In this document: positions 6,467 to 9,928 of the stretch, piece by piece
Layout of the letters: every line of letters starts with the position of its first letter
Position numbering within the stretch: position 1 is the first letter of the stretch
DNA from: a virus
Direction: 5' to 3' (one strand)
DNA: 22,054 nucleotides
IMG/VR virus record: IMGVR_UViG_3300009187_000085
Span: 1-22,054 of that record
The notes under the pieces: model-generated
Told to the model about the DNA's origin: nothing
What the model saw: the letters and a program-made list of their open reading frames with translations, nothing else
Database searches by the model: none
Translations under genes and position numbers: made by a program

Positions 6467-6616
6467 ATGGACATTGTAGAGATACTTTTAAAAGCATGGC
6501 CAGTATTCTTAGCATTCATTACTTTAGTCATAGTTTTGGCTAAAATGGACGTGCGAATCGGGGTATTAGAAGAAAAAGTCAAATCATTATTCGATTTGCA
6601 TAACAAAGGAAAATAA
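6467..6616 (+). CDS. Small membrane protein, 49 aa
   Basis: Starts at ATG 6467 after a strong GGGAGG ribosome site and ends with TAA at 6614-6616, one base before the next ATG. It begins MDIVEILLKAWP, has one membrane helix at about 11-25, and a C-terminal amphipathic heptad-like helix (MDVRIGVLEEKVKSLF). The shape is that of small holin-associated or regulator peptides, and the next gene has the same order of helix then coiled coil. First gene of the plus-strand island. A holin or antiholin role is a possibility, not shown. Confidence 0.72.
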   Translation: MDIVEILLKAWPVFLAFITLVIVLAKMDVRIGVLEEKVKSLFDLHNKGK

Positions 6617-6617
6617 A

Positions 6618-6965
6618 ATGGCAGAAAAAACAGCAGAACAAGCGCATGAAAAAGGTGCGTTTATAGAGAAATTATTATTTGCTCTATTACCTTTATTAGT
6701 TGGTTCAGTTGGATATTTAATTCAAGCATTAGGTTCTATTCAACATGATGTGACCATTCTGAATCAAAAAGTGAGTTTAGTTGTTACTACAGATAACAAG
6801 CAGGCTAGCAATAGTGGTGCTGAATTGGCACGTGAAAAACTATGTCAAGACTTAGAAAAAGAAATTCAAAAGAACCGTGATGCTATCATGGAAAATCGTC
6901 AGCACATTGCTATCCTTGAAGATAGAGCCGGCATGAAGAAAATGGGACCAATGAAGGAACACTAA
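6618..6965 (+). CDS. Membrane protein with C-terminal coiled coil, 115 aa
   Basis: A charged N-terminus (about 1-18) precedes one membrane helix at about 19-39 (LLFALLPLLVGSVGYLI). The rest is soluble and mostly helical, with heptad-like spacing in IQHDVTILNQKV and again from about 75 to 105 (EKEIQKNRDAIMENRQHIAILEDR). The layout resembles phage small membrane proteins of the haemolysin or holin-helper type (coiled coil plus helix), but I cannot place it in a named family. It follows the 49-aa membrane gene by one base and precedes the DUF4337 gene by one, so the three are translated together. Confidence 0.72.
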   Translation: MAEKTAEQAHEKGAFIEKLLFALLPLLVGSVGYLIQALGSIQHDVTILNQKVSLVVTTDNKQASNSGAELAREKLCQDLEKEIQKNRDAIMENRQHIAILEDRAGMKKMGPMKEH

Positions 6966-6966
6966 A

Positions 6967-7524
6967 ATGGCTGAAGTAGTATTACAACAGAAACCATTGT
7001 CACGTAGCGAACGTGAGGCACATATTAAAGATAAAGCTGGATGGGTAATTACCGTCTTAGCCGCTTTACTTGCAATTAACACTTATATATCAAATGGTAA
7101 CAGCAGTAAAGTTTTGAACAATACAATTAGTGCAAACAATACTTGGGCATTCTATCAAGCAAAATCGGTTAAACAAACTCTTGCTGAGATGGCTAGAGAT
7201 GATGCTATCGATAGAAAACAATTAGATAAAGCAGAAAAGTTAACTGCAAAGATTGATAGATACGAATCGGATCCTACTACTGGTGAAGGTAAGAAAGAAT
7301 TAATGGCAAAGGCAAAAGGTCTTGAAGCCGAACGTGACCAGATTCGCAAATCTAGTCCTTGGTTGACATTTGCGGGTTCTGCATTTCAAATTGCAATTGT
7401 TTTGTTAACTGCAAGCATTCTAGCAGTCAGCATGTCATTGTATTTCGCTAGTATTGTTGTTGGAATTTTTGCCTCAGTACTAATGAGTCAGGGTCTGTGG
7501 CTTTGGCTTCCTATCGTCTTGTAA
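6967..7524 (+). CDS. DUF4337 family membrane protein, 185 aa
   Basis: The family is recognisable from WVITVLAALLAINTYISNG (first membrane helix, 26-44), the following SKVLNNTISANNTWAFYQAKSVKQ (about 47-70) with its near-invariant W-x-x-Y-Q-A-K core, a helical charged middle (75-130), and two C-terminal membrane helices (about 133-155 and 158-182). DUF4337 is found in many proteobacteria and cyanobacteria and in some phages; no function is established. The C-terminus overlaps the next gene by 28 bases. Likely an inner-membrane protein with the helical domain between helices 1 and 2. Confidence 0.8.
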   Translation: MAEVVLQQKPLSRSEREAHIKDKAGWVITVLAALLAINTYISNGNSSKVLNNTISANNTWAFYQAKSVKQTLAEMARDDAIDRKQLDKAEKLTAKIDRYESDPTTGEGKKELMAKAKGLEAERDQIRKSSPWLTFAGSAFQIAIVLLTASILAVSMSLYFASIVVGIFASVLMSQGLWLWLPIVL

Positions 7525-7735: not shown

Positions 7736-8353
7736 ATGGATCCAATTACAATCGGACTTGCATTCTCAGCCGCCCAGAGTGCAGTCAGTCACATCAAGCA
7801 GGCAATCGCATTAGGCAAAGACGTTAACAGTCTTGTTGGACAATTCAGCAAATTTTTTGAATCTTCAGATGCCATTCATCGTGAGAGATCAAAGGTAAAA
7901 GCAAAAGCAAGTCGATTAGGAAAAACTGACGCAGAGTTAGGTAAAGAAGCACTTGAAATTGCTATGCATAGTGATGCTTTAAGACAAGCAGAACGTGAAT
8001 TGAAAGATATGATTCTGTGGCAGTTAGGTAAACCACAGATTTGGGAACAAATGATTCAAGAGCGAACTAGATTATTCAAAGAACGTGCTGATGCTGAACG
8101 TGCAGAAGAAGAAAGAAAACTAGCCCATAAAAAGAAAGTGGCAGACCAGATTTTATTTGGAATGTATTTTATTGGGTTTGCCGCTATCGTTTTTGCACTT
8201 GTAATGGGTGGTATTGGAATATATGGTGCTGTTGAAGAAAAAAGAATTTATGAAGAAAAGGTTGCTAAAAGAAATTTGCTTATACGACAGCAACAAAAAG
8301 AACGTGATGCAAAAGAACGTGATGCAAGAGATAAAGCAATTGGAGGAGGCTAA
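7736..8353 (+). CDS. Conserved phage membrane protein, MDPITIGLAF type, 205 aa
   Basis: The N-terminus MDPITIGLAFSAAQSAVSHI followed by a short GKDVNSL segment marks a phage family I know only as hypothetical. A long helical charged region (about 45-135) has the motif LWQLGKPQIWEQMIQERTRL typical of that family. One membrane helix lies at about 141-165 (GMYFIGFAAIVFALVMGG), and the C-terminus is a very charged helix with the repeated units KERDA KERDA. Possible roles include membrane-attached scaffolding or lysis timing; none is shown. Follows the 77-aa gene by 5 bases. Confidence 0.78.
   Translation: MDPITIGLAFSAAQSAVSHIKQAIALGKDVNSLVGQFSKFFESSDAIHRERSKVKAKASRLGKTDAELGKEALEIAMHSDALRQAERELKDMILWQLGKPQIWEQMIQERTRLFKERADAERAEEERKLAHKKKVADQILFGMYFIGFAAIVFALVMGGIGIYGAVEEKRIYEEKVAKRNLLIRQQQKERDAKERDARDKAIGGG
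8296..8325 (+). repeat. Perfect 15-base tandem duplication in the 205-aa gene
   Basis: AAAAGAACGTGATGC occurs twice in a row (8296-8310 and 8311-8325), keeping frame and adding one KERDA unit to the charged tail. It looks like a recent slippage event. Confidence 0.85.
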
Positions 8354-8356
8354 CTT

Positions 8357-8470
8357 ATGTACTTTAATATAATTATTACATTTAACGATTTATTATTTTT
8401 ATTCTGTATGACTCCGTTACTTGCTGTCTTTTGGGTTATGTTTAAAGATTGGTTAAAGGATAGAAAATGA
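8357..8470 (+). CDS. Small membrane protein, 37 aa
   Basis: Starts at ATG 8357 with GGAGGAGG closely upstream and stops at TGA 8468-8470, overlapping the ATG of the next gene as ATGA. It is nearly all hydrophobic: MYFNIIITFNDLLFLF, then CMTPLLAVFWVMF, then a short basic end KDWLKDRK. This makes one long or two short membrane segments with a cytoplasmic basic tail. The tight overlap with the LpxH-like gene suggests translational coupling. Could be an accessory to that membrane-surface enzyme, or a small holin-like peptide; neither is shown. Confidence 0.68.
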   Translation: MYFNIIITFNDLLFLFCMTPLLAVFWVMFKDWLKDRK

Positions 8471-9231
8471 AAACATATCGTTCTATTTTTGTGAGTGATG
8501 TACATTTAGGTACCAAAGATAGTCAGGCTGATAAGTTAAATAACTTTTTAAAGCATAACAGTTGTGACACACTATATCTAGTGGGTGATATTATTGATGC
8601 ATGGCGCATACAACAAAACAAGTGGCGTTGGAAACAAAGTCATACCAATGTAGTGCGTAGAGTATTAGGTCACGCAAAACGTGGCACTAGAGTTGTTTAT
8701 GTTGCAGGCAATCACGATGAGTTTCTTAGACCCATGATACCATATGGTTTTAGTTTTGGTCTTATCGAAATTCACAATCAAATAGAACATATAGGTGCAG
8801 ATGGCAAACACTATTTAGTTACACATGGTGACTTGTTTGATGGCATTACTAGACTTGCACCATGGTTGAGTTTTTTAGGAGATAAAGCATATGATTTCAT
8901 TCTTTCGCTCAATAGCAAGTTCAATTGGATACGTCATCGTTTTGGTTTTGGGTATTTTAGTATTAGTAAATATCTTAAGCATAGAGTAAAAAAGGCTGTA
9001 GATTTTATATTTCAATTTGAAAAAAATCTAGCCGCTTACTGTATCAAACGAGGTTTTGATGGGGTAATATGCGGACACATACACCACGCAGAGATTAAAG
9101 AAATCAATGGTGTTATGTATATGAATGATGGCGATTGGGTTGAAAGTTGTACAGCACTTGTAGAACATCATGACGGTCGATGGGAAATTATAACTTGGAC
9201 TAAGGAGAAAGATAATGATGAAACTCTGTGA
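8467..9231 (+). CDS. LpxH-like UDP-2,3-diacylglucosamine hydrolase family metallophosphoesterase
   Basis: A calcineurin-like phosphoesterase of the LpxH branch. All metal-ligand motifs are in place: D11-x-H13 (SDVHLG), D41 (GDIIDAWR), N82-H83 (GNHD), H120 (THGD), H204 and H206 (GHIHHA). The length (254 aa) is close to cellular LpxH (about 240), and the region between GNHD and THGD and the DGDWVES end are also LpxH-like. Cellular LpxH cuts UDP-diacylglucosamine to lipid X at the inner membrane in lipid A synthesis. In a phage it could alter lipid A supply, or use another pyrophosphate substrate. It overlaps a GT2 gene by 17 bases. The family is clear; the substrate is inference. Confidence 0.88.
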   Translation: MKTYRSIFVSDVHLGTKDSQADKLNNFLKHNSCDTLYLVGDIIDAWRIQQNKWRWKQSHTNVVRRVLGHAKRGTRVVYVAGNHDEFLRPMIPYGFSFGLIEIHNQIEHIGADGKHYLVTHGDLFDGITRLAPWLSFLGDKAYDFILSLNSKFNWIRHRFGFGYFSISKYLKHRVKKAVDFIFQFEKNLAAYCIKRGFDGVICGHIHHAEIKEINGVMYMNDGDWVESCTALVEHHDGRWEIITWTKEKDNDETL

Positions 9232-9928
9232 TAAAATTACTATTGTTGTGCCTTGTAAGAATGAAGAAAATTATATTCATCATCTACTAGATTCATTACG
9301 TTCACAAAACATAGGTGACACTAGAGTAATCATTGCTGACTGTTCAACCGATGCCACTAGACAAGTTATTAAGGATAACAGTATTGGACTGAATGTTGAA
9401 ATCATTGATGGTGGTCCAGTATCTATTGCTAAGAACAACGGAGCAAGACTAGTCACTACTCCGTACATTCTGTTTATCGATGCTGATGTTCGATTCTTTA
9501 AAGATACAGTTATTAGAGATGCTGTCAACAAGATGGAATTAAAGAAACTGCATCTTGTTGGACTAAACATTAAATGTTACGACAAAGACATACGAGCAAA
9601 GATTGGATTTACAGCATTTAATGTAATCAATCACACACTAAAATTCTTTAGCCCATTTGCTGTAGGTGCATTCATGCTGACACGTAAAGATAAGTTTGAA
9701 GAGTATGGTGGGTTTCCCGAAAACTTATTAACATCTGAAGACTACTTTTTATCTAAGAAATATAGTCCTAGAAAATTTAAGATTATTCGACATCACTTTG
9801 GACAAGATAGCCGTAGATTTAAAAAGATGGGCTACTTAGGTATGGGCAAATATCTTGTTAAAAATTTTGTCAATCGCAATAACAAAAAATATTGGGAAAG
9901 TTTATACCATAATAGATACTGGAATTAA
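9215..9928 (+). CDS. GT2 family glycosyltransferase, 237 aa
   Basis: A GT-A fold family 2 glycosyltransferase. Its motifs are ITIVVPCKNEENYI at the start, ADCSTDAT (41-48), a DAD metal site at 89-91 (FIDADV), a conserved acidic pair E175-D176 (TSEDYFLS), and QDSRRFKKMG at about 197-206 in place of the usual Q/R-rich acceptor motif. No membrane helix is strong, though residues 131-154 are moderately hydrophobic. AAGGAG lies 7 bases before the first of two adjacent ATGs. It overlaps the LpxH-like gene, so the two probably act together, perhaps on lipid A core, O-antigen precursor or another lipid-linked sugar. The acceptor cannot be read. Confidence 0.87.
   Translation: MMKLCDKITIVVPCKNEENYIHHLLDSLRSQNIGDTRVIIADCSTDATRQVIKDNSIGLNVEIIDGGPVSIAKNNGARLVTTPYILFIDADVRFFKDTVIRDAVNKMELKKLHLVGLNIKCYDKDIRAKIGFTAFNVINHTLKFFSPFAVGAFMLTRKDKFEEYGGFPENLLTSEDYFLSKKYSPRKFKIIRHHFGQDSRRFKKMGYLGMGKYLVKNFVNRNNKKYWESLYHNRYWN

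Follow-up and report, generated by a model that had tools for sequence, protein, structure and literature searches.

The DNA analysed here, referred to as the window, is a stretch of 22,054 nt (IMG/VR record IMGVR_UViG_3300009187_000085) which, to judge by its RNR, RNase H-type exonuclease, endolysin and RuvC-like protein, belongs to a T4-like phage. Hints at the host are weak, with the exonuclease matching that of Methylophilales phage Melnitz at 58% and the RNR matching that of an Alcaligenes phage at 61%. Three ORFs follow each other on the plus strand, namely, a small membrane protein gene, a plcP homologue and a GT2-family glycosyltransferase gene (Table 1). The 37-aa ORF overlaps plcP by 4 nt (ATGA) and is translationally coupled to it, and plcP overlaps the GT2 gene by 17 nt. 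Positions and both overlaps are as a first, sequence-only reading had given them. Further membrane protein genes precede them in the same gene run. The plus-strand run opens with an ORF of approx. 50 aa that has a good ribosome-binding site, so this is probably where the local operon begins. Compared with eight relatives, plcP and GT2 showed dN/dS values of 0.04–0.14 and are both under purifying selection.

Table 1. Features of the window and of related loci (L numbers denote related contigs).
Feature	Position	Strand	Basis or remark
Membrane-like ORF, approx. 50 aa	window 6467-6616		good ribosome-binding site; upstream of 6618; opens the + strand run
115-aa membrane-protein gene	window 6618..6965	+	close to start of local + strand run
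DUF4337 membrane protein gene	window 6967..7524	+	Pfam DUF4337 1.8e-29; upstream neighbour, same gene run
205-aa membrane protein gene	window 7736..8353	+	upstream neighbour, same gene run
37-aa single-pass membrane ORF	window 8357..8470	+	one hydrophobic segment
plcP homologue, putative metallophosphoesterase-type phospholipase C, 254 aa	window 8467..9231	+	identity to PlcPs, clade, motifs, AF2 model
GT2-family glycosyltransferase, 237 aa	window 9215..9928	+	Pfam Glycos_transf_2, motifs, GT-A fold model
ORF of approx. 57 aa	L079:6749-6922		and homologues
Acidic repeat-rich protein gene, approx. 215 aa	L018:7709-8356, L032:4880-5524, L038:7541-8185, L279:3120-3764		near glycosyltransferase
Divergent plcP homologue, cyanophage-like	L452:2136-2891		example from L416-L495
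PlcP of a Methylotenera MAG contig	L161:4977-5741		inside viral clade
Second metallophosphoesterase gene	L323:6147-6965		GT4-type phage locus
DesA-like fatty acid desaturase gene	L330:6632-7342	-	and 26 other loci

PlcP is a bacterial phosphate-starvation enzyme that strips phosphorus from membrane lipids. The 254-aa protein matched Pfam Metallophos, and its calcineurin-type metal-ligand motifs were complete (SDVHLG, GDIID, GNHDE, HGD and GHIHH), in agreement with the intact enzyme, every metal ligand visible, of the sequence-only reading. All motifs of PlcP membership (DxH, GDxxD, GNHD/E, HGD and GHxH) were present. Over approx. 95% of the length, it was 55% identical to PlcP of P. aeruginosa and 49% identical to PlcP of S. 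meliloti. The P. aeruginosa reference is located on a plasmid and has a GT4 glycosyltransferase (Agt) as its neighbour, from which we take it to be PlcP; the S. meliloti reference is presumably PlcP as well, given its AHL-synthase and LuxR neighbours. In a tree of 73 rows, the protein was placed in the PlcP clade with viral sequences, near a Pseudomonadaceae group, while all seven LpxH formed one separate clade (100/100). Its AF2 model reached a pLDDT of 85.7. Judged from its sequence, the protein is a PlcP-type phospholipase C.

The sequence-only reading had instead proposed LpxH (UDP-2,3-diacylglucosamine diphosphatase), which would act on UDP-2,3-diacylglucosamine and alter lipid A or O-antigen. 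The chance of this being right is very slight. Both enzymes have a calcineurin-like fold and the metal-ligand framework in common, the homology is remote, and LpxH was the nearest solved fold (TM ~0.55, 18% identity), as is expected for sister families. However, the protein scored 43.9 bits (NF003743) and 32.4 bits (TIGR01854) on the LpxH models, far below the equivalog cut-offs of 134 and 190 bits, and these are normal scores for a PlcP, given that the PlcPs of P. aeruginosa and S. meliloti reached 38–55 bits on both. The identity to E. coli LpxH was 21% over 122 aa. Where 7/7 LpxH compared have GNRDF, the window protein has GNHDE, and GNHD is also seen in the phage relatives of its family. 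LpxH and lipid A as its substrate pathway were rejected because of these scores, the missing GNRD and the separate LpxH clade; the O-antigen precursor variant was unsupported. Its nearest homologues are instead phospholipases C of the PlcP type, which belong to another pathway and act on another substrate, an outcome that the sequence-only reading had itself named as refuting its proposal. A separate LpxH above the cut-off was present in five out of nine bacterial genomes with a close PlcP homologue. Homologues from cultured phages do carry the annotation UDP-2,3-diacylglucosamine hydrolase, but known PlcPs bear the same automatic annotation. In the phage records L154 and L155, plcP is likewise annotated as lpxH or UDP-2,3-diacylglucosamine hydrolase, and the same error may underlie the K03269 lpxH entry of a Lake Baikal virome (PMC9611531).

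The 237-aa protein matched Pfam Glycos_transf_2 (5e-20). The motifs DxD (D89, D91), SED (S174-D176) and QDSRRF (Q197-F202) were invariant in 13 phage GT2 homologues, and the model showed a confident GT-A fold (pLDDT 87.9) with no clear transmembrane helix predicted. The best matches in a structure search were polysaccharide and teichoic acid glycosyltransferases, which reflect general GT2 folds only, and the PHROG matches include GtrB-like O-antigen conversion. A bacterial origin of the enzyme was not found in 274 genomes of one bacterial class; these held no close homologue of known acceptor but generic GT2 relatives of approx. 25–30% identity (the best approx. 26–30%), and none of the best matches lay near plcP.

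The IMG/VR scan yielded at least 593 relatives, on contigs that are metagenomic and partly redundant. Among the best 80 of these, representing the window's phage family, 74 had enough downstream sequence for evaluation, and a glycosyltransferase was found beside plcP in 74/74, with GT2 in the slot in 59, GT4 in the slot in 14 and GT4 nearby in one. When loci were selected by GT2, plcP was directly upstream in 67; in four without plcP the GT2 start was within 170 nt of the contig end, and GT2 away from plcP was seen only where a contig ends. Of the 74 viral loci selected by GT4, 70 had PlcP directly upstream, and the other four had it nearby. GT2 and GT4 co-occurred in 0/310 loci. The viral GT4 shared 37% identity with P. 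aeruginosa Agt across 327 aa, and the close bacterial plcP homologues had GT4 in the slot in 58 out of 77 cases and GT2 in none. Thus, as GT2 and GT4 alternate in the slot and bacteria have GT4, the window presents a plcP-agt architecture with its second enzyme replaced. The coupled phosphoesterase-glycosyltransferase unit, probably acting on lipids, which the sequence-only reading had put forward, was thereby recovered across many phages. That reading had also suggested a search for the pair in host genomes, and in the bacteria covered the partner was mostly GT4 and never GT2.

Two other viral groups were seen. Within the one related to pelagiphage Mosig (n = 69), GT4 was in the slot in 42 loci and nearby in one more, GT2 in 14, and neither in 12. 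The cyanophage-like group (L416-L495) had a glycosyltransferase in the slot in 0/80 loci; its plcP homologue is divergent (~35% identity, GNHE motif) and has psbA upstream in 63 of the 80. One PlcP, from a Methylotenera MAG contig, formed a long branch within the viral clade and had no glycosyltransferase neighbour; the gene may have been exchanged with a host, or the contig may be a wrongly binned phage.

The 37-aa gene lies upstream of plcP only in the near-identical contigs L002 and L003. It is found downstream of GT2 in L099, together with the 205-aa gene, which travels with it and not with plcP, and it is missing from most related loci. It is a local neighbour outside the conserved module, and the idea, suggested before, that the 37-aa protein forms the third part of a module was discarded because this gene is not conserved. 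The DUF4337 gene was found in part of the related loci. In 32 of 59 GT2 loci and most GT4 loci, a conserved ORF of approx. 57 aa whose product has a hydrophobic N-terminus lies between plcP, the stop of which it overlaps, and the glycosyltransferase gene. This ORF, absent from the window, is a candidate third component. Loci such as L018 (Table 1) have, near the glycosyltransferase, a gene for an acidic, repeat-rich protein of approx. 215 aa, which is often preceded by a Pho-type box of its own and perhaps belongs to the same regulon.

The Pho-type box was defined as an exact 11-bp direct repeat, TGTMAY-N5-TGTMAY, which has the spacing and core of a PhoB site. A first scan with the E. coli consensus gave weak matches, and the variant was set after these had been seen. 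The exact box preceded 52 of 111 non-redundant viral plcP compared to 32 of 1722 other ORFs in the same loci (Fisher p ~3e-47, a value that is optimistic and partly post hoc because the pattern was refined after the first look). It also preceded 20 of 23 phage pstS. The boxes of both genes were mostly located 35–60 nt before the start codon, and shuffled plcP and pstS upstream sets gave no exact match. This window contains no exact box, and upstream of the operon no site was found even when one mismatch was allowed; its plcP is operon-internal, within a run of unrelated membrane-protein genes. The box was also missing in 14 of 17 GT2-overlap loci. The motif thus points to phosphate control for the family and not for the window copy. 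PstS was encoded within 5 kb of plcP in 30 viral loci, and the one member scored was a true PstS with 391 bits against an equivalog cut-off of 339. The plcP of pelagiphage Mosig adjoins a PstS-like gene, which is divergent. Phage genes of the pstS type thus share their loci and the type of Pho box with viral plcP, but they serve phosphate uptake, whereas the source tapped by PlcP would be the phosphorus of membrane lipids. In L323, an exact Pho-type box lies 142 nt upstream of a second metallophosphoesterase gene, which is unrelated to the first. In 27 loci (one of them listed in Table 1), viral plcP has a DesA-like fatty acid desaturase gene within ~5 kb, which possibly contributes to further lipid remodelling.

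In bacteria, lipid remodelling by PlcP is an established pathway (PMC4796936, PMC9239053, PMC9457565, PMC9804370), and plcP is commonly found beside agt or other glycosyltransferases (PMC4796936, PMC9239053). With a probability of roughly 70%, we consider the pair in the window a phage-borne module for membrane-lipid remodelling, which would convert phospholipid to glycolipid and free phosphate. PlcP would cleave host glycerophospholipids on the glycerol side of the phosphate, releasing the head group in phosphorylated form and leaving diacylglycerol. The latter would then be glycosylated by the co-translated GT2, and the resulting phosphorus-free glycolipid would replace the phospholipid and spare membrane integrity, while the freed phosphorus would feed phage DNA synthesis under phosphate shortage. 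The enzymatic activity, the sugar transferred and the advantage that the phage would gain are what we infer for this module. Diacylglycerol is the probable GT2 acceptor because the slot is shared with an Agt homologue and because bacterial GT2-family MGlcDG synthases exist (PMC5809773).

The bacterial plcP-agt operon of SAR11, roseobacters, Methylosinus and P. aeruginosa (PMC4796936, PMC9239053, PMC9804370) resembles the phage locus in its PlcP (49–55% identical) followed by an overlapping or adjacent glycosyltransferase, and the related phages add a GT4 Agt homologue and Pho boxes to this likeness. The version in the window differs in being phage-encoded, in having a GT2 (GT-A fold) and not a GT4 Agt as its second gene, and in having no Pho box. 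The cyanobacterial monoglucosyldiacylglycerol synthase is a precedent for a GT2/GT-A enzyme that glucosylates diacylglycerol (PMC5809773). The cyanobacterial MgdA is an integral membrane protein (PMC3916417), whereas the phage GT2 is predicted to have no clear transmembrane helix. Cyanophage lipid desaturases (Roitman et al. 2018, as cited in PMC12282109) are a precedent for phages modifying host membrane lipids, although they catalyse another reaction and recover no phosphorus. No report of a phage-encoded PlcP was found in the open-licence literature. Within this literature, the statement that no phage system of this composition had been described holds true, while its bacterial counterpart, the plcP-agt operon, is described (PMC4796936, PMC9239053).

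Next to the LpxH activity weighed above, two further explanations were considered. PlcP might free phosphorus or diacylglycerol while GT2 glycosylates phage DNA, a virion protein or a surface glycan, the two genes being mere neighbours under one promoter. The acceptors of GT2 families are indeed very broad, the nearest folds and the GtrB-like PHROG matches point to polysaccharide, teichoic acid and O-antigen enzymes, and the cyanophage-type plcP does without any glycosyltransferase in the slot. We nevertheless regard a separate GT2 target as unlikely, given that GT2 and the Agt-like GT4 swap in one slot and never occur together, that GT2 departs from plcP only at contig ends, and that bacterial plcP usually adjoins GT4, with GT2-family MGlcDG synthases being known (PMC5809773).

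Less probable still is that the same two enzymes serve the envelope, i.e. adsorption, superinfection exclusion, lysis timing or resistance to cationic peptides, and not phosphorus recovery. Phage receptors are expected to be affected by lipid renovation, which in bacteria also alters the sensitivity to antimicrobial peptides (PMC9804370), and the missing Pho box of the window would fit such a purpose; the Pho boxes of the relatives and their co-located PstS genes, however, point to phosphorus. Returning to the remodelling module, we lean, with clearly less assurance than for the pair itself, towards a wider picture in which T4-like phages of fresh and marine waters, as a large group, mine membrane phosphorus with pstS, plcP and a lipid glycosyltransferase switched by the host's PhoB, and in which a phage-specific GT2 that glycosylates diacylglycerol has taken the place of the Agt GT4 in one lineage.

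Bacteria have a large pool of phosphorus in the phospholipid of their membranes, and dsDNA phages are rich in phosphorus. The hundreds of related phage contigs with plcP, usually with an adjoining glycosyltransferase and often with a Pho-type switch, suggest that, under phosphorus scarcity, phages rebuild the membranes of their hosts. If true, a phage-encoded switch from phospholipid to glycolipid that responds to phosphate starvation would give phages a new way of obtaining phosphorus, and the glycolipids measured in phosphorus-poor waters would have a link to viruses. Some of the environmental plcP and “lpxH” signals would then be viral, and the misannotation as LpxH may hide the plcP-glycosyltransferase function in phage records.
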